A stretch of 64,000 bases of DNA from Oscillospiraceae bacterium (lineage in GTDB: Bacteria; Bacillota; Clostridia; Saccharofermentanales; Saccharofermentanaceae): assembly GCA_902764825.1 (NCBI GenBank), contig CACWXL010000005.1:124001-188000 (forward strand). The letters are read 5' to 3'. A program made the translations under genes and the position numbers. The notes beneath the pieces were generated by a model that did no database searches, was not told where the DNA came from, and worked only from the letters and a program-made list of their open reading frames with translations. Below, in pieces: positions 22,206 to 33,514 of the stretch (position 1 is the stretch's first letter; each line of letters begins with the position of its first letter).

Positions 22206-22646
22206 TCAGGAATTTGTAAGGATAGCAAACTTGAGTGTTGCCTGAACTGCTACCTTGCCGTTAACTGTTGCGACAGCTTCGCCGAGGCCGACAGGTCCCT
22301 TTACTGCAGTGATCCTTGTCTCAAGTCTTGCTGTGTCACCGGGAACGATGGGCTGCTTGAACTTGCACTTGTCGATGCCTGCGAAAACAGCGATCTTACC
22401 CTTGAACTCCTCCTGTGAGAGGATCGCAACGGCACCTGCCTGTGCAAGAGCTTCAACTGTGAGAACACCCGGAACGATGGGCATCTCAGGGAAATGTCCT
22501 CTGAAGAAATACTCATCAAAGGTGAAGTTCTTATAAGCGATGCAGAATTTACCCGGTTCATAATCCTCTACCTTGTCGATAAGAAGGAAAGGATGTCTGT
22601 GAGGGATGATCTTCATGATCTCTGTTGTGGTAAGTGCATTTGCCAT
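22206..22646 (-). CDS. fabZ: 3-hydroxyacyl-ACP dehydratase FabZ
   Basis: A 146-residue hot-dog-fold enzyme that dehydrates 3-hydroxyacyl-ACP to trans-2-enoyl-ACP in fatty-acid elongation. Family motifs are IPHRHPFLLIDKV, the catalytic His in FFRGHFPEMPIVPGVL, and the catalytic Glu in TVEALAQAGA. The length is standard. The ATG has GGAGG nine bases upstream. It is the last gene of the fab operon, 18 bases after fabF, and is followed by a terminator. The acc genes that often accompany it in Clostridia are not here. It is the only dehydratase in the window, so it may also serve the second acyl cluster upstream. Confidence 0.97.
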   Translation of the reverse strand: MANALTTTEIMKIIPHRHPFLLIDKVEDYEPGKFCIAYKNFTFDEYFFRGHFPEMPIVPGVLTVEALAQAGAVAILSQEEFKGKIAVFAGIDKCKFKQPIVPGDTARLETRITAVKGPVGLGEAVATVNGKVAVQATLKFAILTNS

Positions 22647-22664: not shown

Positions 22665-23865
22665 TTATTCAGCAAACTTCTTGACTATCATGGAAGCGTT
22701 GTGGCCGCCGAAGCCCAGGTTGTTTGTCATAGCATAAACTATATCGCGATTCTTAGGTTCGTTAAAGGTGTAATCGAGATCCATCTCGCCTTCAGCTTCC
22801 TTGGAGCCTGCGGTAACGTGTACATAACCGTCCTGGATGGACTTAACGCAAGTGATGAGCTCGATTCCGCCTGCACCGCCCAGAGCGTGGCCGATCATGG
22901 ACTTTGTGGAGTTGATGGATACATTCTTGATGTCTTCCTTGAATGCATACTTCATTGCACGTGTCTCGAAAAGATCGTTGTGGTGCGTTGATGTGCCGTG
23001 AGCATTGATGTAGTCAACCTGGGAAGGAGCGATTCCTGCTTCCTTCATGGCGATGATCATTGCCATGCCTGCGCCTGAACCGTCTTCTGCAGGAGATGTG
23101 ATGTGGTAAGCGTCGCATGTTGCGCCGTAACCTACGATCTCAGCGAGGATGTTTGCGCCTCTTGCCTTGGCATGCTCTAAAGACTCGATAACGAGAACGC
23201 CTGAACCTTCACCGATTACGAAGCCGTCTCTGTCCTTGTCGAACGGTCTTGAAGCTGTCTCGGGATCTTCATTTGTTGAAAGAGCCGTAAGTGCTGCGAA
23301 TCCCTGGATGCCTGTCTTGCAGACTGCTGCTTCACATCCGCCTGTGATCATGACGTCTGCGTCACCGTACTTAACTGCCTTGAAAGCATCACCGATAGAA
23401 TGAAGACCTGTAGCGCATGCTGTAACGACGCATGTGTTGATGCCCTTCATTCCGTATTGGATCGCGATGTTAGCGGATGCCATGTTAGCGATCATCAAAG
23501 GAATGTACATAGGAGCGATCTTACCCGACTTCTCGAATCTGATCTGCTCTCTCTCGTGTGCCTGCATGGATCCGATACCGGAGCTTACGATGACGCCTAC
23601 TCTGTAGGGATCTTCCTTCTCCATATCGAGGCCTGCCTGCTCGATAGCTTCCTTTGCTGCTGCCAATGCATAGTGTGCGAAGGGTTCCATACGCTTCATC
23701 GTCTTGAAGTCCATATAATCTGTGGCTTCGAAACCCTTGACCTCACAAGCAAGCTTTACCTTGGCGTTGCTCGCATCGAACTTGGTAATGGGAGCTGTTG
23801 CTGCCTTACCCTTCTTGAGACCTTCCCATCGCACCCATGCCGGTTACTACGACTCTGTTTGCCAT
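22665..23865 (-). pseudogene. fabF: 3-oxoacyl-ACP synthase II, frameshifted by N-terminal deletion
   Basis: FabF elongates acyl-ACP by condensation with malonyl-ACP. From the ATG at 23865, which has a good GGAG site, translation reads MANRVVVTGMGA, then changes to MGRSQEG and stops after 19 codons. In another frame the normal sequence resumes immediately as WEGLKKGKAATAPITKFD and runs intact to 22665, including the nucleophile TACATGLHS, NAHGTSTHHND and the His of MIGHALGGAGG. The expected VTPIGN-type segment of about 11-12 residues is missing, consistent with loss of about 35 bases. The downstream frame has only a GTG at 23834 and no ribosome site. Either the gene is broken or the assembly has an error here; a truncated product lacking the first strand is unlikely to fold. 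Confidence 0.85.
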
Positions 23866-24689: not shown

Positions 24690-25607
24690 TTAGCCGAGTG
24701 TTTCCAATAACTTGTCTACGTCTTCAGGTGTTGATACACCGATTACCTTGATCGAAGGAACCGTCTTTCTGACAAATCCTGCGATCGTCTTTCCGGGGCC
24801 GACTTCGATGATAGTGTCAACGCCCATCTTTTCGAGTTCATAAAGTGTCTGCTCCCATCTGACGGGATTTGAGACCTGAGCTTCGAGAAGGCCCTTGATC
24901 TGATCCTTGTCAGTGATCTGCTGAGCATTAACATTCGCAATATAAGGGAGCTTCAGGTTGCCGAGTTCGACCTTCTCAAGTTCCTTGCCGAGCTTCTCGC
25001 CTGCACCCTTAAGGAGAGGTGAATGGAAAGGTCCGGAAACATTGAGTTCTACGACCTTCTTGGCGCCTGCCTCAGAGAGCTTGGGCATAGCTGCCTGAAC
25101 AGAAGACTTCTTACCTGTGATAACGATCTGGCCGGGGCAGTTGAAATTAGCGCACCAGCAGCCGTCGATGTCCTTTATCACGTTCTCGATAGTCTCAGCA
25201 TCAAGGCCGATTACAGCGGCCATTGAGCCTTCGCCTGCGGGAACCTCTGAAGACATGAGCTGTCCTCTGATCCTTGTAAGTCTTACTGCATCCTCAAAGC
25301 TCATTGCACCTGCAACATAGAGGCTGCAGTATTCGCCTAAAGAGAGGCCTGCCGTAACGTCGGGCTTGATGCCTGCAAGGAGCAGCGCATCCGTGATGAT
25401 GCAGCATGCCGTAACCAGTGCCGGCTGTGTAAATTCCGTGATGTTGATGTCTTCGTTGGGCTCGAAAAGGAGCTTGTTCATGTCAACTCCGGAAGCCTTT
25501 GTTGCTTCGGAGATCATATCGGCATAGTGCTCGCCTGACTTGACGAACTCCTCTGCCATTCCTACCTGCTGTACGCCCTGACCCGGATAACAAAATGCGA
25601 TCTTCAT
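24690..25607 (-). CDS. fabD: Malonyl-CoA:ACP transacylase
   Basis: A 305-residue acyltransferase that loads malonyl groups onto ACP. The nucleophile motif is GLSLGEY (Ser), preceded by FCYPGQGVQQVGMAEEF at the N-terminus. The catalytic His lies in NVSGPFHSPLL, and the QxxxxxP-type oxyanion region TQPALVTACC is present. The length is typical. Its ATG shares one base with the fabK stop (TAATG), so translation is coupled. It is the only malonyl transferase in the window and presumably supplies both the fab operon and the nearby ACP cluster. Confidence 0.96.
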   Translation of the reverse strand: MKIAFCYPGQGVQQVGMAEEFVKSGEHYADMISEATKASGVDMNKLLFEPNEDINITEFTQPALVTACCIITDALLLAGIKPDVTAGLSLGEYCSLYVAGAMSFEDAVRLTRIRGQLMSSEVPAGEGSMAAVIGLDAETIENVIKDIDGCWCANFNCPGQIVITGKKSSVQAAMPKLSEAGAKKVVELNVSGPFHSPLLKGAGEKLGKELEKVELGNLKLPYIANVNAQQITDKDQIKGLLEAQVSNPVRWEQTLYELEKMGVDTIIEVGPGKTIAGFVRKTVPSIKVIGVSTPEDVDKLLETLG

Positions 25608-27767: not shown

Positions 27768-27881
27768 ATGGACGGAAAATGAGACGAAAAAGGCGAAAAC
27801 CGTCTCTAAAATCGTCCATGAGGCCTCCCATAGACGAAAATAGAGACGATATTTGCCAAAACCGTCTCATTTTCCGTCCAT
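27768..27881. repeat. 114-base intergenic near-perfect palindrome
   Basis: The outer arms are a perfect 19-base inverted repeat: ATGGACGGAAAATGAGACG at 27768-27786 and its complement at 27863-27881. The inner arms continue as an imperfect repeat (GGC-A-AAA-CGTCTCTA...TCGTC against its complement). Both strands would fold into one long hairpin of about 50 pairs with few mismatches. GAGACG/CGTCTC occurs four times. It lies between the fab promoter and the terminator of the next unit. It is too long and lacks a T tail for an ordinary terminator, so a mobile palindromic element or a structured RNA is likelier. Confidence 0.85.
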
Positions 27882-27994: not shown

Positions 27995-28729
27995 TTACTT
28001 CTCAAACCTTGAAGCAGCCCAGCCGCCCTCGTTCATATGGGAATTTGTAAGGGTCGCAAAGCCTTCCGGTGACAGGAGTGGGATCTGCAGTTTGCGGATC
28101 GTCTCCGGATCGAGCTTAAAACCATTCGCGCAGTATTCGGCTCCGGCCTTCTTCAGGTCATCCAGATAGACCCTGATCTGCCTTTTAGCCTTGCCGGTCA
28201 TGAAGACTTCGCCCATGGGGCACAATATTGCCGTGTACTTTTCCCTGCCGCCGCAGATGAGATCGTACTGGGCAAGGAGTGCCGGATAGACGGGCTCTAA
28301 TTCGACATAGCCGCAGGAACTTATAACAACGAATTTCTTATTAAATATAGAAGGATCTCTCATCTTATTGAAAGTCTGGCCGTCGTCAGACCTGGTGCCC
28401 ATGTAGGGTTCGGCAAGAGAGAGGCACCTGTCGGTCACTGCCTTAAGCTGTGAAGGCATGCCGTAGAAATACAGAGGAAAGCTCTCGATGATGACGTCAG
28501 CTTCCCTGATGGCGGCGATGATCTCTGCCATGTCATCCTTTATGGCGCATGTTCCGTCAGGAGATGCCCAGCATGCAAAGCAGCCCATGCAGGGCTTGAT
28601 GTCCTTCTCGTAGATATTTATCTTCTTAACTTCTGTGCCCTCGGGAAAACCGGATACGAAAGCATTCGTAACCTGAATGGTGTTGCTCCTGTCCTTCTTG
28701 GGACTGCCGTTAAGAACAAGGACTTTCAT
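27995..28729 (-). CDS. NADPH-dependent FMN reductase/flavodoxin-fold oxidoreductase
   Basis: A 244-residue flavodoxin-like protein. The flavin-binding start is MKVLVLNGSPKKDRSNTI. It is followed by CMGCFACW, a cysteine-rich segment typical of the iron-sulfur-flavoprotein/WrbA-like NAD(P)H reductases, and FPLYFYGMPSQLKAVTDR. The ATG at 28729 overlaps the stop of the FabG-like gene by one base (TGATG). The longer frame starting at 28810 has no ribosome site. It is the last gene of the accessory ACP cluster, so it may reduce an unsaturated or quinone-like product, or recycle flavin. That role is inference. Confidence 0.85.
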   Translation of the reverse strand: MKVLVLNGSPKKDRSNTIQVTNAFVSGFPEGTEVKKINIYEKDIKPCMGCFACWASPDGTCAIKDDMAEIIAAIREADVIIESFPLYFYGMPSQLKAVTDRCLSLAEPYMGTRSDDGQTFNKMRDPSIFNKKFVVISSCGYVELEPVYPALLAQYDLICGGREKYTAILCPMGEVFMTGKAKRQIRVYLDDLKKAGAEYCANGFKLDPETIRKLQIPLLSPEGFATLTNSHMNEGGWAASRFEK

Positions 28730-29463
28730 CAGAGACTCAAGCCTCCGTCGAGCACGATGACCTGGCCGGTCATGTAGGAGAATGCATCGGAAACGAGGCT
28801 TGCGACGCAATCTGCGACATCTTCAGCCGAACCGAAGCGCTTCATGGGAACCGCCTCCAGGTACTTCTCGGCGAGATCGCCCGGAATGGACTTGATCATG
28901 TCGGTGCCGATAAAGCCCGGAGCTACCGCATTTACCTGTATTCCGTAAGGCGCGAGCTCTTTTGCCATAGTCTGTGTCATGGAGTTGACCGCGCCCTTGG
29001 TAGCACTGTAAACAGTCTGGCCGGGAACTGCGAGGATCGAGCTTACTGAAGAAACGTTGATGATCTTGCCGCTCTTCTGTGAACACATCTTAAGGCTTGC
29101 AGCCTGCGCACAGTTGATATAACCCTGGATATTGATCGCAAGGCTCCTTTGCAGAGAATCAGGTCTTATCATGAGAAGATAAGCGTCATCTACGACACCT
29201 GCATTGTTGACCAGAACATCTATCGTCTCAAAGCTCTTCTTTATGGCCTTGAACATGTCCTTGACCTGTGCGATGTCTGATGTGTCTGCCTTATAGATCT
29301 CGCAGCGGACACCCAGTGCGGAGATCTCTTCACCGGCTGCCTTGGCAGCTTCATCGTTGGAAGCGTAGTTAAGAGCTATGTCATAGCCTTCCTTCGCAAG
29401 CTTTAATGCGATCGCTTTGCCTATTCCTCTGGATCCGCCTGTGACTACCGCCGTCCTGCTCAT
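28729..29463 (-). CDS. FabG-like ketoreductase of the accessory acyl cluster
   Basis: A 244-residue short-chain dehydrogenase. TGGSRGIGKAIALKLA binds NADP(H), LVNNAGVVDDAYLLM follows, and the catalytic Tyr-Lys occurs in YSATKGAVNS. It ends GQVIVLDGGLSL. It resembles FabG closely but is clearly distinct from the housekeeping copy at 23923. It starts 15 bases after the KS-CLF fusion and overlaps the FMN reductase, so it most likely reduces beta-keto groups on the cluster's own ACP (next to the KS gene). Other SDR substrates cannot be excluded. Confidence 0.9.
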   Translation of the reverse strand: MSRTAVVTGGSRGIGKAIALKLAKEGYDIALNYASNDEAAKAAGEEISALGVRCEIYKADTSDIAQVKDMFKAIKKSFETIDVLVNNAGVVDDAYLLMIRPDSLQRSLAINIQGYINCAQAASLKMCSQKSGKIINVSSVSSILAVPGQTVYSATKGAVNSMTQTMAKELAPYGIQVNAVAPGFIGTDMIKSIPGDLAEKYLEAVPMKRFGSAEDVADCVASLVSDAFSYMTGQVIVLDGGLSL

Positions 29464-29478
29464 AAAAAGCCCTCCGTC

Positions 29479-31743
29479 TTATGCCTTGGTCAGCAATACT
29501 GCCGAATAAAGCGAGCTTGTTCCGTATGAGACGGCAATGCCGCTCTCGAACTTTCCTTCATAGATATCCCTGGCTAGCATTGCGAACTGCATGGATGAAG
29601 ATGCGGCTCTTGCCTCGCCGAAGTTCTTCTTAATGAGTCTGACTTCGATATCGTCTCCGAAGATCTTCTTATATACTTCCATCTCGAAAGCATCGATCTC
29701 GCTGATCCCGTTGCCGAAGCCGTAGATGCACTTAACGTCTGATGCCTTCATTCCGCTCTCTTCAAGGACGTTCTCGACAGCCTTTGTAAGAGCAGTTTCC
29801 GATAATCTCATATTGTCATTTCTGTTGCCTGACGTGTCTCTGGCAGAAGAGAATCCTGCGATCTTCGCATAGCGCTTTGCACCGCGCTCCATTGCAGAGG
29901 AATCCTTCTCGATCACGCATGTTACGGAGCCTTCGCCCAGGGTCATCCTGCCTTCGGCGGCAAGACCGAGATCTGCATAGATCTCTTCGTCGATGTCGGT
30001 GCACTCGTCGGTTCCTGATGCGAGCATGATGCTCTCATAGCCGAACATGATGGCGCCGGCTGCAGCGCAGACGCTCTGGAGGCCTGACTGGAAGCCGTTT
30101 GCGATCGTTACGTTATAGCCCTTTATGCCCGTGGCGATACTGAGATAACCGCCTGCTGCGTTATAGACCGTATTCGGGAAAGCAAATGCGGATCCCTTGT
30201 CGATGCCGTCTCTGATGATCCCCTTCTGGAAGTTGGCGATCTCAGTCATCGGGCCGTCGTTTGTGCCGATGCAGATCCCGATTATGCTTTCATTCTCAGG
30301 TGTGACCGTTATGCCGGCATCTTCAAGTGCCTTAAGGCCGCTTAAGAGCTGGAGCTGTGAGAGTCTGTCGAGTTTTCTTAAGAAAGCGGACTTTACTCCG
30401 TATGACTTGAATGTATCAGTATCAAGCTTGGCGACATATGTCTTTGAGTCCTCATTGAACTCGCCGTTTACGATGCCTATGCCCGTTACATAGAGTTCCT
30501 GCTTGGGGCATGTGAGGTTCAGAAGATTAGGGTCTTTCGCGAAAACTATGCTCGCATTGTTGCCGCCGAACGCGAAAGAATTCGACATCGCGTACTTGAT
30601 GTCCTTTTCGAGCGGCTTGTTGGCAATGAAATCTATATCGCCGGACTTCTCGGAGAGGACCTTTAAGTCTTCTTCGCTGTAGCCTGTTGTCGGCGGGAGC
30701 TTGCCCTCGGTAAGAGCCTTGACCGTGAGGACTGCTTCGATAGCGCCTGCAGCACCCAGGCAGTGGCCTGTCATGGACTTGGTCGAACTTACGGAAAGGT
30801 GCTTGTTGTCTGCGAAAACAGTATTAAGTGAGAGGAATTCCGATTCGTCGTTCTTGGCCGTACCGGTACCGTGCGCATTGACATAATCGATATCGGTGAA
30901 CTTTAATCCGGAATTCTTAACGGCACGTGTAATAACGCTCATCTGGCCTTCGCCGTCGGGCCTCGGAGCGGTGATGTGATAAGCATCGGAGCTTACGCCG
31001 GAGCCGAGCACATCACAGTATATCCTGGCGCCGCGCTTAACGGCATGCTCGTAGGATTCGACAACGAGAACGCCTGCGCCTTCGCCCAATGTGATTCCGT
31101 CACTGTGGTTGAACGGGGAACAGTCGGAAGGAGCCAATGCCCTCAAGGCATGGAATCCCGCGTATGCGAGCGATGAGAAAGAATCGCATCCGCCTGCGAG
31201 GAATATATCTCCCTTGCCGCCCCTGATAAGATCTATTGCCATTGCGACACTCAAAGTGCCTGCCGCACAGGCATTTACGATATTTGCGGTAATGCCGCCC
31301 GCATTGTAATAGTCGGCAACATTTCCCGCGATGGCAGAAGCCGGCATCGCCTTAAGATCGTCGATGTCGCCCTTCTCACCTTTAACTTTTGCGTTGTAAT
31401 ACTTCTCAACACAAGCGGCGCCTGCGATACATGAACCCAGGATGACGCCTATGTCGGATGCGCCTTCGGAAGCTGCATCGATCCCTGCATCCGCAAGTGC
31501 CTCGCCTGCCGCCTTTATTCCGAGGGCAGTCGTCCTGTCGTATCTGCCGTCTGCAAGCTGAGAATTGGAGCTTGCTACTTCGGCACCCTTATGTGAATAG
31601 CAGGCTGAAGTATCAAAGCTCTTGACATCAGCTATGCCTGACCTGCCTGTAAGTGCTGATTCAAAGCACTCATCAGTATTATTACCGATTGCGCACACGA
31701 GGCCTAAGCCCGTGATAACGCAACGCTTCTCATTCATTGGCAT
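29479..31743 (-). CDS. Fused ketosynthase / chain-length-factor-like protein
   Basis: A 754-residue protein with two thiolase-fold ketosynthase domains. Domain 1 (1-410) is FabF-like and complete: nucleophile Cys159 in NACAAGT, His291 in NAHGTGT and His327 in MTGHCLGAAG. Domain 2 (about 416-754) keeps the fold but has lost all three: NGFQSGLQS has Phe551-Gln552 at the Cys position, and FGNGISEID replaces the HGTGT element. An active KS next to an inactive KS-like partner is the KSalpha/KSbeta (CLF) arrangement of type II polyketide and related acyl systems, here in one chain. It begins two bases after the ACP stop. The product is unknown; simple fatty-acid elongation is the alternative. Confidence 0.85.
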   Translation of the reverse strand: MPMNEKRCVITGLGLVCAIGNNTDECFESALTGRSGIADVKSFDTSACYSHKGAEVASSNSQLADGRYDRTTALGIKAAGEALADAGIDAASEGASDIGVILGSCIAGAACVEKYYNAKVKGEKGDIDDLKAMPASAIAGNVADYYNAGGITANIVNACAAGTLSVAMAIDLIRGGKGDIFLAGGCDSFSSLAYAGFHALRALAPSDCSPFNHSDGITLGEGAGVLVVESYEHAVKRGARIYCDVLGSGVSSDAYHITAPRPDGEGQMSVITRAVKNSGLKFTDIDYVNAHGTGTAKNDESEFLSLNTVFADNKHLSVSSTKSMTGHCLGAAGAIEAVLTVKALTEGKLPPTTGYSEEDLKVLSEKSGDIDFIANKPLEKDIKYAMSNSFAFGGNNASIVFAKDPNLLNLTCPKQELYVTGIGIVNGEFNEDSKTYVAKLDTDTFKSYGVKSAFLRKLDRLSQLQLLSGLKALEDAGITVTPENESIIGICIGTNDGPMTEIANFQKGIIRDGIDKGSAFAFPNTVYNAAGGYLSIATGIKGYNVTIANGFQSGLQSVCAAAGAIMFGYESIMLASGTDECTDIDEEIYADLGLAAEGRMTLGEGSVTCVIEKDSSAMERGAKRYAKIAGFSSARDTSGNRNDNMRLSETALTKAVENVLEESGMKASDVKCIYGFGNGISEIDAFEMEVYKKIFGDDIEVRLIKKNFGEARAASSSMQFAMLARDIYEGKFESGIAVSYGTSSLYSAVLLTKA

Positions 31744-31745
31744 TA

Positions 31746-31997
31746 TCAGTCCTCTTTGTGTGCTTCTACGAATGCCGTAAGAGTCTCAATGGAACGGAAG
31801 TCATCTCTTGTAGCACCTGCACCGGAAATGTCTACTCCGAAGAGATTCTCGATACCTACGATGATCTCGATGGAATCGATGGAATCAAGTCCTATATCCT
31901 CGCCAAAAAGCTCTGAATCGTACTCGAGCTCGTCTTCAGGGATCCTGAGTCTTTCTACCAGCATTCCCTTGATCTTCTCGGCAATCTCATTATTCAT
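31746..31997 (-). CDS. Acyl carrier protein of the accessory cluster
   Basis: An 83-residue ACP. The phosphopantetheine Ser is Ser39 in GEDIGLDSIDSIEI, where the common form is DSL. Helix II and III segments (IIVGIENLFGVDIS) follow, and the protein is acidic overall. The start has AGGAGG upstream and the stop is two bases before the KS-CLF gene. No other ACP is in the window: the adjacent fab operon lacks one. It may be specific to this cluster, while housekeeping acpP is elsewhere, or it may serve both. A D-alanyl-type carrier is a weaker alternative. Confidence 0.92.
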   Translation of the reverse strand: MNNEIAEKIKGMLVERLRIPEDELEYDSELFGEDIGLDSIDSIEIIVGIENLFGVDISGAGATRDDFRSIETLTAFVEAHKED

Positions 31998-32048
31998 TTC
32001 CCTAAGTTCCTCCTATATATTTAAAAAGTAAAACTTACGACAATAACC

Positions 32049-32681
32049 TTACACTAAGTTGTCCTGTTTTTCCAACGAAACGGAATAAAAGCGTAAAATA
32101 ACGCCAAATCTTTTAAGTTCTTGTACCGACATCTTACATTCCTCGCCCCAGGAAGAGACCCTGAGCGTATCTCCTTCCAATCCCGTGATCGTTACCCAGT
32201 GGTAATCGCACATAGTCTTAAATCCGCCGGGTTCCACGACGCAGACCTTCCTGAACGGGGACACGAAAAGCATTACCAGAGGATCCCCGCTCTTCAGGTA
32301 CTCAGGGATCTTCTCCCACCATTTGAAACGGAAAGACTTGACCTTGATCTTCACGCCTTCCTTGACGGCAAGCTTTCTGATGCCCCTTCTGAACCTTCCG
32401 GCACTTACGCCCAGGCTTCCGAAGAATTCCTTTCCGAATATCTTTCTGGCTTCCCTTTTCCTGCCTATCATGATGGGCCTTATATAATCCTTGGCGTCGA
32501 AAAACCTTTTGAAGTATTCTTCCCTGGTCATGCCCTCCTCACCCTTAAGGCGCATGATCGCATCAAGGCCGGCGATTATTCCGCAGCCGCTATTAACGAA
32601 CATCGCGTCAGGAAGCCACATCTGGCTTCCGCCGAATGACTCACGGCCGTATTGATCGACTATCTTAGGCGGCAGACTCAT
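32049..32681 (-). CDS. Papain-like (C39/BtrH-type fold) cysteine protein, function unknown
   Basis: A 210-residue soluble protein. Cys33 in NSGCGIIAGLDAIMRLKG begins a helix, as a papain-like nucleophile does. A His in CDYHWVTITGLEGDTLRVSSW sits at the start of a strand, as the catalytic His of C39 peptidases and related acyl transferases does. The central part is basic (RKREARKIFG and KIKVKSFRFKWW). No signal peptide, ABC or processing partner is present, so bacteriocin maturation is unlikely. It overlaps the asparaginase gene by four bases (ATGA) and lies 51 bases before the ACP gene. Acyl transfer from ACP, as in BtrH-like proteins, is a speculative option. Confidence 0.6.
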   Translation of the reverse strand: MSLPPKIVDQYGRESFGGSQMWLPDAMFVNSGCGIIAGLDAIMRLKGEEGMTREEYFKRFFDAKDYIRPIMIGRKREARKIFGKEFFGSLGVSAGRFRRGIRKLAVKEGVKIKVKSFRFKWWEKIPEYLKSGDPLVMLFVSPFRKVCVVEPGGFKTMCDYHWVTITGLEGDTLRVSSWGEECKMSVQELKRFGVILRFYSVSLEKQDNLV

Positions 32682-33514
32682 CTTAACAACACCTCCGACC
32701 AGGCGCCTTCAACAGGCATGCCCGTAAATTCTTCTGCTCCGGCGTCCCGGAGTATCTTCCTGCTCTCATAGACTCCGCCTCTTACGGGGACCGGAGCCAT
32801 GAAGCACCGTATTCCTTTCGAAGTCCAGCGCTCTACCATGGGTGCAAGTCCTGCAGAAGCCGTTCCCGAATGATTGCAGCAGATAAGCACTCTGTCAAAA
32901 CCGTCCTCAGGTATCACGCTTCCCGGAACGGCAGGGATCACCAGTATCTTAGGAAGCTCCTTCTTGTTAAGGAACTCCGTGTAATCTTTTATCTCAGGCA
33001 GGGTGTCCTCGCTATATTCAGAATAGATCCCGTTAATGTCAGGCGACATTATCAGGTGAGCCTTATAAAGCTGCTGATCACCTCTGCCGTTCTTAAAGAC
33101 CACGCCGCTCCGCCCTTCTTCAAGGCATCTAACGGCATATGTCAGGTTCCCCGATGCCTCATCAGGGTCTTTATCAGGCGATCTCATGGAACCGGTGATC
33201 ACAAACGGAATATCCAAAGAACCCAGTATCCTTGCAGCAAGCTGGGCGAAAAAAGCACATGTATCGGTCCCGTGGGTTATAAGGATCCCGTCAAAACCCG
33301 GAGCTTCGCTGACGATCTTTTTTAATGCGTCACGGTAGAGATAAGGTGTCGCATCCTCAGAAGAATAAGTCTTAAACTCAGGGAAGGAGAATTCGTGGGA
33401 AGGATACTTTTCGAGCAGGACGGAGCGCGCGAAAGAAGGCTCGCCGAGCTTTACCGTGCCCTTCGAATCGTAAGAGGAGATCGTTCCTCCGAGCATCGCA
33501 CCTAATATCCTCAT
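32678..33514 (-). CDS. ansA: Type I-like cytoplasmic L-asparaginase
   Basis: A 278-residue asparaginase/glutaminase-family enzyme producing aspartate and ammonia. The first threonine motif is LGGTISS and the second is ILITHGTDTCAFFAQL, with the family's TGSMRSPDKDPDEASGNL and NGRGDQQLYKAH segments. No signal peptide is present. The start is the ATG at 33514 with a GGAAAGGG site; the frame extends upstream without one. It is somewhat shorter than the roughly 330 residues of most family members, missing part of the C-terminal domain. It is coupled to the papain-like gene, so it could belong to the same unit as the acyl cluster. The substrate is assumed, not proven. Confidence 0.85.
   Translation of the reverse strand: MRILGAMLGGTISSYDSKGTVKLGEPSFARSVLLEKYPSHEFSFPEFKTYSSEDATPYLYRDALKKIVSEAPGFDGILITHGTDTCAFFAQLAARILGSLDIPFVITGSMRSPDKDPDEASGNLTYAVRCLEEGRSGVVFKNGRGDQQLYKAHLIMSPDINGIYSEYSEDTLPEIKDYTEFLNKKELPKILVIPAVPGSVIPEDGFDRVLICCNHSGTASAGLAPMVERWTSKGIRCFMAPVPVRGGVYESRKILRDAGAEEFTGMPVEGAWSEVLLR

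Follow-up and report, generated by a model that had tools for sequence, protein, structure and literature searches.

A fused ketosynthase and chain-length-factor protein in a probable highly reducing type II synthase of gut and rumen Clostridia

The window considered here, 64,000 nucleotides from an Oscillospiraceae bacterium (GCA_902764825.1, contig CACWXL010000005.1, positions 124,001 to 188,000), carries on its minus strand a four-gene module (27995-31997) for a dedicated acyl carrier protein (ACP), a ketosynthase (KS) joined in one chain to a chain-length factor (CLF)-like half (KS·CLF), a ketoreductase (KR) and a flavoprotein. We read it, with a probability of roughly 60%, as a highly reducing type II polyketide or fatty-acyl synthase with a covalent KS-CLF pair, its product probably being a polyene or polyunsaturated acyl chain. 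The closest working analogy would be with the highly reducing type II polyketide synthases (PKSs) for ishigamide and the aryl polyenes, with the KS and CLF linked as in PfaC. The module would seem to be a second system for building acyl chains, next to the normal fatty-acid genes of a rumen bacterium. Among the open-licence papers searched, none was found that describes a stand-alone fused KS-CLF or reports a highly reducing type II synthase in these bacteria of gut and rumen.

The fused KS·CLF protein

The central protein (754 aa, 29479-31743, minus strand) consists of two ketosynthase halves. Residues 1-409 (30517-31743) are FabF-like (NF005589, 439 bits) and contain the catalytic Cys159 (codon at 31267-31269), His291 (30871-30873), Lys322 (30778-30780) and His327 (30763-30765). 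Residues 410-754 (29479-30516) have weak FabF homology (E 2.5e-30), and here Gln552 (30088-30090), in the context ANGFQSGLQS, replaces the active-site Cys, while the His motifs are degenerate, HGTGT having become YGFGN and GH having become GE, with neither catalytic His present. Gln at the active-site Cys position is a classical mark of CLF and KSQ proteins. A preliminary description of this locus had proposed an active KS and an inactive KS partner within one chain, the second half having lost Cys, His and His, and the residues of both halves agree with this, no catalytic Cys appearing in the second half once aligned.

These features are conserved. Cys159, His291, Lys322, His327 and Gln552 are all invariant among 39 diverse homologues of 54-95% identity, as are many other residues of the second half; in a wider set the four catalytic residues are found in 24/24 sequences and Q552 in 22/24, and the absence of Cys together with the altered His motifs is kept across 15 copies from the genus. 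Against five congeners, pairwise dN/dS lies between 0.04 and 0.06 in the KS half and between 0.07 and 0.09 in the CLF half, and so, taken with the invariant residues, the second half is maintained under purifying selection and is not a decaying duplicate, its independent decay being ruled out. A scan of the collection gave 268 relatives, of which 80 loci were kept, 33 of the genus type and 47 from outside the genus. Of these 80, 78 have an intact fusion, the other two (L040 and L103) being split across frames in a frameshift-like manner.

An AlphaFold2 model of the full chain, built on a 39-row alignment (pLDDT 85.6, pTM 0.91), has the halves packed together with the CLF half in the KS fold. 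Foldseek comparison of the whole chain with the PDB gave as top match 6riw, the KS-CLF didomain of PfaC (TMq 0.80, 18% identity), which alone covers both halves among the 50 matches listed. Since a single matched half yields a TMq of only about 0.5, the predicted placement of one half on the other is like that in a genuine KS-CLF pair. Second-look structural alignments of the KS half gave the highest Z, 52.4, with the ishigamide KS (6kxd), tied with FabF structures.

Phylogeny and origin

Trees that took in FabF proteins, Streptomyces KSalpha/CLF pairs, aryl-polyene KSs and NodE place the KS halves in one clade (support 100) outside the FabF clade (95), and so the grouping of both halves with housekeeping FabF only, which the preliminary description had allowed for, was not seen. 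The CLF halves also form one clade (100), adjoining the actinobacterial CLFs at weak support (66). NodE is the tree neighbour of the KS halves (support 84-95), a long-branch join of unsure placement. In approximately unbiased (AU) tests a joint clade of KS halves and Streptomyces KSalpha was rejected (p-AU 0.013), but not one of KS halves and FabF (p 0.25) or of KS and CLF halves (0.364). The score against the NCBIfam fabF equivalog, 452 bits, is below the cut-off of 493.75. The trees and AU tests together point neither to a transfer of actinomycete type nor to the resident fabF having been duplicated recently, while the p of 0.25 is compatible with a deep FabF origin.

Gene content and limits of the module

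The ACP (83 aa, 31746-31997) has a GLDSIDS phosphopantetheine site (Pfam PP-binding, E 8.7e-10). The FabG-like KR (28729-29463) is a short-chain dehydrogenase/reductase (SDR) with TGGSRGIG and S-YSATK motifs, matched by the Pfam and NCBIfam SDR 3-oxoacyl-ACP reductase models, and the last gene (27995-28729) encodes a flavodoxin-fold flavin mononucleotide (FMN) protein with a CX2CX2CX7C motif (Pfam Flavodoxin_2/FMN_red). All are on the minus strand. The open reading frames and their tight packing are as first described, with gaps of 2 bp between the ACP and KS·CLF genes and 15 bp between those for KS·CLF and KR, and a 1-base overlap of the KR stop with the flavoprotein start, which is placed at the ATG at 28729, the listed TTG at 28810 lying too far upstream. 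In the direction of transcription the order is asparaginase-like gene, papain/C39-like gene, ACP, KS·CLF, KR, flavoprotein and then, after a gap of about 440 bp, fabH-K-D-G-F-Z.

The first two of these, the asparaginase-like gene (32678-33514) and the papain/C39-like gene (32049-32681, no Pfam match), had been thought possible members, but they lie outside the module, which does not reach 33514. Congeners without the fusion keep them beside fabH: the order is ExoIII, asparaginase, C39 and fabH in L166 and asparaginase, C39 and fabH in L168, and in L167 and L169-L172 the asparaginase gene is retained upstream of fabH. Both genes are absent from all 47 non-genus loci. The four genes thus form a discrete module, and the asparaginase and C39 genes are resident bystanders.

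Distribution and gene sets in relatives

Within the genus the fusion was found in 29 of 59 genomes sampled. Hosts include Saccharofermentans-type relatives, many Oscillospiraceae assemblies and Ruminococcus bromii YE282, and a plasmid of Lachnospira eligens ATCC 27750 ([Eubacterium] eligens) encodes the fused protein WP_041688922.1. R. bromii and the L. eligens type strain are culturable, and the isolate Ruminococcaceae bacterium AB4001 (L062) also has the cluster. The L. eligens megaplasmid cluster (L151, NC_012780.1 220019-238409) is near-complete, having genes for a TetR regulator, a hydrolase, ACP, KS·CLF, KR, FabZ, FabD, AccD, a flavodoxin-family protein and PlsX, and no annotated enoyl reductase (ER) of the FabI or FabK type.

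The core travels together. An ACP gene lies directly upstream of KS·CLF in 32/33 genus-type and 45/47 non-genus loci, a KR is present in 33/33 and 46/47, and the flavoprotein in 33/33 and 42/47. What differs is the remainder of the gene set: a FabZ-type dehydratase (DH) is found in 44 of the 47 non-genus loci against none of the 33 genus-type modules, a PlsC-like acyltransferase in 41 against none and an Sfp-type phosphopantetheinyl transferase (PPTase) in 29 against none. The PlsC-like and PPTase families were clustered on the non-genus loci only, and their absence from the genus type is judged from what comes directly after the four-gene block there, namely fabH or unrelated genes. Conservation in related genomes, to which the preliminary description had looked, therefore holds outside the genus for ACP, KS·CLF, KR, DH, PlsC-like protein and PPTase. 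Its statement that there is no dehydratase stands for the window lineage and fails for the family, given the 44 of 47 non-genus loci that have one, and so describes a lineage peculiarity rather than a family feature; the DH is missing only where the module sits by the fab operon. The module is followed by fabH of the fabH-K-D-G-F-Z operon in 30 of the 33 genus-type loci, and sits beside fabH in none of the 47 others.

Profile searches of class and phylum samples mostly returned FabF, the sole additions being the distant fused loci L122/L123 and L191. With L173 these make up a distant fused type of 804-812 aa from other Bacillota, and L122 and L123, the ones checked, have Val at the position equivalent to Gln552. 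The distant-type clusters L173 (4618-18040) and L191 (9027-15616) hold genes for FabZ, ACP, KR, FabD, a thioesterase and a GcvT-like protein, that of L173 having in addition an ABC transporter, a glycosyltransferase-like gene and a flavoprotein. Fusion of KS and CLF alongside a reducing gene set so recurs in the phylum.

Fab enzymes available to the module

In the window genome, which is 99.9% complete and in which families were counted genome-wide, the FabD of the adjoining operon (24690-25607, minus strand) is the sole Acyl_transf_1 (PF00698) member and its FabZ (22206-22646, minus strand) the sole FabA/Z-family (PF07977) member. There is one gene of the PPTase superfamily, and no MaoC-type gene over the cut-off; a MaoC-type protein as the missing DH was considered, the only match being FabZ itself, below the cut-off. 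With one FabZ and one FabD in the genome, sharing with the module seems likely, as had been suggested earlier: if the module needs loading and dehydration these are the only candidates of their families, and they are probably shared. PP-binding sequences occur at four other places in the genome, and so the module ACP is not the only one, which fits its earlier designation as an accessory acyl carrier.

Proposed chemistry and alternatives

In the proposed scheme the shared FabD would load malonyl onto the dedicated ACP, and the KS half, through Cys159, His291 and His327, would carry out condensation, while a tunnel formed by both the KS and the CLF half of the one polypeptide would accommodate the growing chain. 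The dedicated KR would reduce the beta-keto group, and FabZ, shared in the window lineage and dedicated in relatives, would remove water. Lacking a dedicated ER, the system would then accumulate conjugated double bonds and yield a polyene or polyunsaturated acyl-ACP. Transfer to lipid in the relatives is suggested by the PlsC-like acyltransferase, and by the PlsX gene in L. eligens. The Saccharofermentans version looks to be intermediate between primary and secondary metabolism: elongation and ketoreduction have dedicated enzymes, and for loading and dehydration it apparently depends on the fab operon.

For the FMN protein, possible roles are the reduction of a C=C bond and the maintenance of the product in a reduced state. 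Its CX2CX2CX7C motif, which recurs in a protein of the very distant L173 cluster, resembles that of the iron-sulfur flavoproteins. Its nearest solved structure is a weak match to the N-terminal part only, FLR (7d38), at E 4e-7 for the window protein and 8e-10 for that of L083. FLR is a gut flavone ene-reductase (PMC7862272), and a C=C-reducing role here may be taken as a lead and not as a result.

Several points weigh against a polyene synthase. The product is deduced, and no starter-unit or export gene indicates its class. The polyene step depends on the absence of an ER gene from the operon, and FabK of the adjoining operon could act as enoyl reductase and so give a saturated product, or the flavoprotein itself could be the ene-reductase. 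As judged from the sequence trees, the weakly supported position of the CLF halves beside actinobacterial CLFs, and the joint clade of KS halves and FabF that was not rejected, also count against it.

An unlikely, though the best surviving, alternative is a specialised branch of fatty-acid synthesis in which, with enoyl reduction by the adjacent FabK, lipids of the membrane or envelope would be supplied with an unusual chain, be it saturated, hydroxy or mono-unsaturated. The position of the module directly upstream of fabH-K-D-G-F-Z in nearly all genus-type loci speaks for it, as do the PlsC-like and PlsX genes in the operons of relatives and a KS half nearest in sequence to FabF-type enzymes. 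However, the non-genus operons have their own DH and PPTase with no ER and do not lie beside fabK, and one expects a CLF-like partner and a dedicated PPTase in secondary pathways rather than in fatty-acid synthesis.

Considerably less probable is that FabF was duplicated and fused without gaining a new product, the second half being a structural relic and the whole protein acting as a beta-ketoacyl-ACP synthase II that is redundant or regulatory. The unrejected KS and FabF clade is in its favour, as is the presence of the fusion in only about half of the genus genomes, which makes it dispensable. A second KS could also be of use in view of the window's housekeeping fabF (22665-23862), from which 32 bp that the near relatives L038, L042 and L023 have close to the 5' end are missing, so that the frame shifts soon after the ATG; this deletion may be genuine or an error of assembly. 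Set against this are the invariance of Q552 and many other second-half residues, the purifying selection on that half, the near-constant company of a dedicated ACP, KR and flavoprotein, and the fact that distant families, and a plasmid, also carry the fusion. An aromatic type II PKS of the actinorhodin type, of which KS, CLF, ACP and KR are the core and all present, is very improbable indeed, there being no cyclase or aromatase among the families conserved in the 47 non-genus loci, a dehydratase being conserved in relatives, and the KS half having been rejected as sister of Streptomyces KSalpha.

Relation to known systems

Of the systems compared with the proposed highly reducing synthase, the ishigamide PKS (Iga10-13/16) shares with the module an ACP, a KS with Cys, an inactive CLF and a dedicated KR with no dedicated ER; its DH is matched only in relatives of the window module, the window version having none of its own. 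It differs in that here the KS and CLF are fused, the hosts are anaerobic Clostridia, a flavoprotein is present and the relatives have a PlsC-like gene. The aryl polyene synthase of E. coli CFT073 (ApeO-ApeC, with ApeQ as KR) likewise has a KS-CLF, KR, FabA/Z-type DH and ACP, as well as a lysophospholipid-acyltransferase-like gene. Its cluster has aryl starter and lipid export genes, whereas starter genes (acyl-CoA synthetase and the like) and MMPL/LolA export are absent from the window module and from the families conserved in the 47 related loci; the module moreover has one ACP rather than two, a fused KS·CLF and Gram-positive hosts.

The polyunsaturated fatty acid (PUFA) synthase protein PfaC has a covalent KS-CLF and is the best whole-chain structural match, but the protein here stands alone, has only KS domains and low identity, and belongs to a type II layout with discrete ACP, KR and DH, without tandem ACPs or fused DH domains. 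Type II PKS pairs share the Cys-His-His(-Lys) KS and Gln-bearing CLF, but not the fusion, and their actinobacterial KSalpha do not group with the KS halves. The module departs from type II pairs in its fused subunits, and it fails the defining features of aryl polyene systems, having no aryl starter or export genes, and of PUFA systems, having no type I layout. Rhizobial NodF and NodE, a dedicated ACP and KS for polyunsaturated Nod-factor chains, draw on housekeeping fatty-acid synthesis enzymes as the module probably does, although NodE has no CLF half. The yellow affinity substance of C. thermocellum (celluxanthene/flavoaffinin) is also a polyene pigment of anaerobic Clostridia, but was rejected as the product since the cex cluster behind it encodes an iterative type I PKS (PMC12144888) rather than a KS·CLF type II system.

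A wider proposal, offered tentatively and at somewhat less than even odds, is that highly reducing type II synthases with a covalent KS-CLF constitute an uncharacterised family, found widely among Clostridia of the rumen and gut (Saccharofermentans, R. bromii, L. eligens), and make polyene lipids as the Gram-positive anaerobe counterpart of the aryl polyenes, that a flavodoxin-type ene-reductase edits the chain, and that one lineage has dispensed with a dehydratase of its own and relies on the neighbouring FabZ and FabD.

Further observations

Between the flavoprotein gene and fabH the window has a 53-nt inverted repeat (27768-27881, 77% complementary, 8-nt loop), whose arm has no copy in the other 196 loci searched. 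The same interval holds genes for large surface proteins, with repeats like those of choline-binding or leucine-rich-repeat proteins, in L048 (12933-14618) and L057 (12653-16610), and an AraC-like regulator and a lipoprotein-like gene in L065, L066, L071 and L073. An Apilactobacillus kunkeei plasmid (L152, 5992-8462) has two unfused ketosynthase genes side by side, accompanied by a methyltransferase gene and a cyclase-like gene, in what seems to be an aromatic type II PKS of a lactic acid bacterium.

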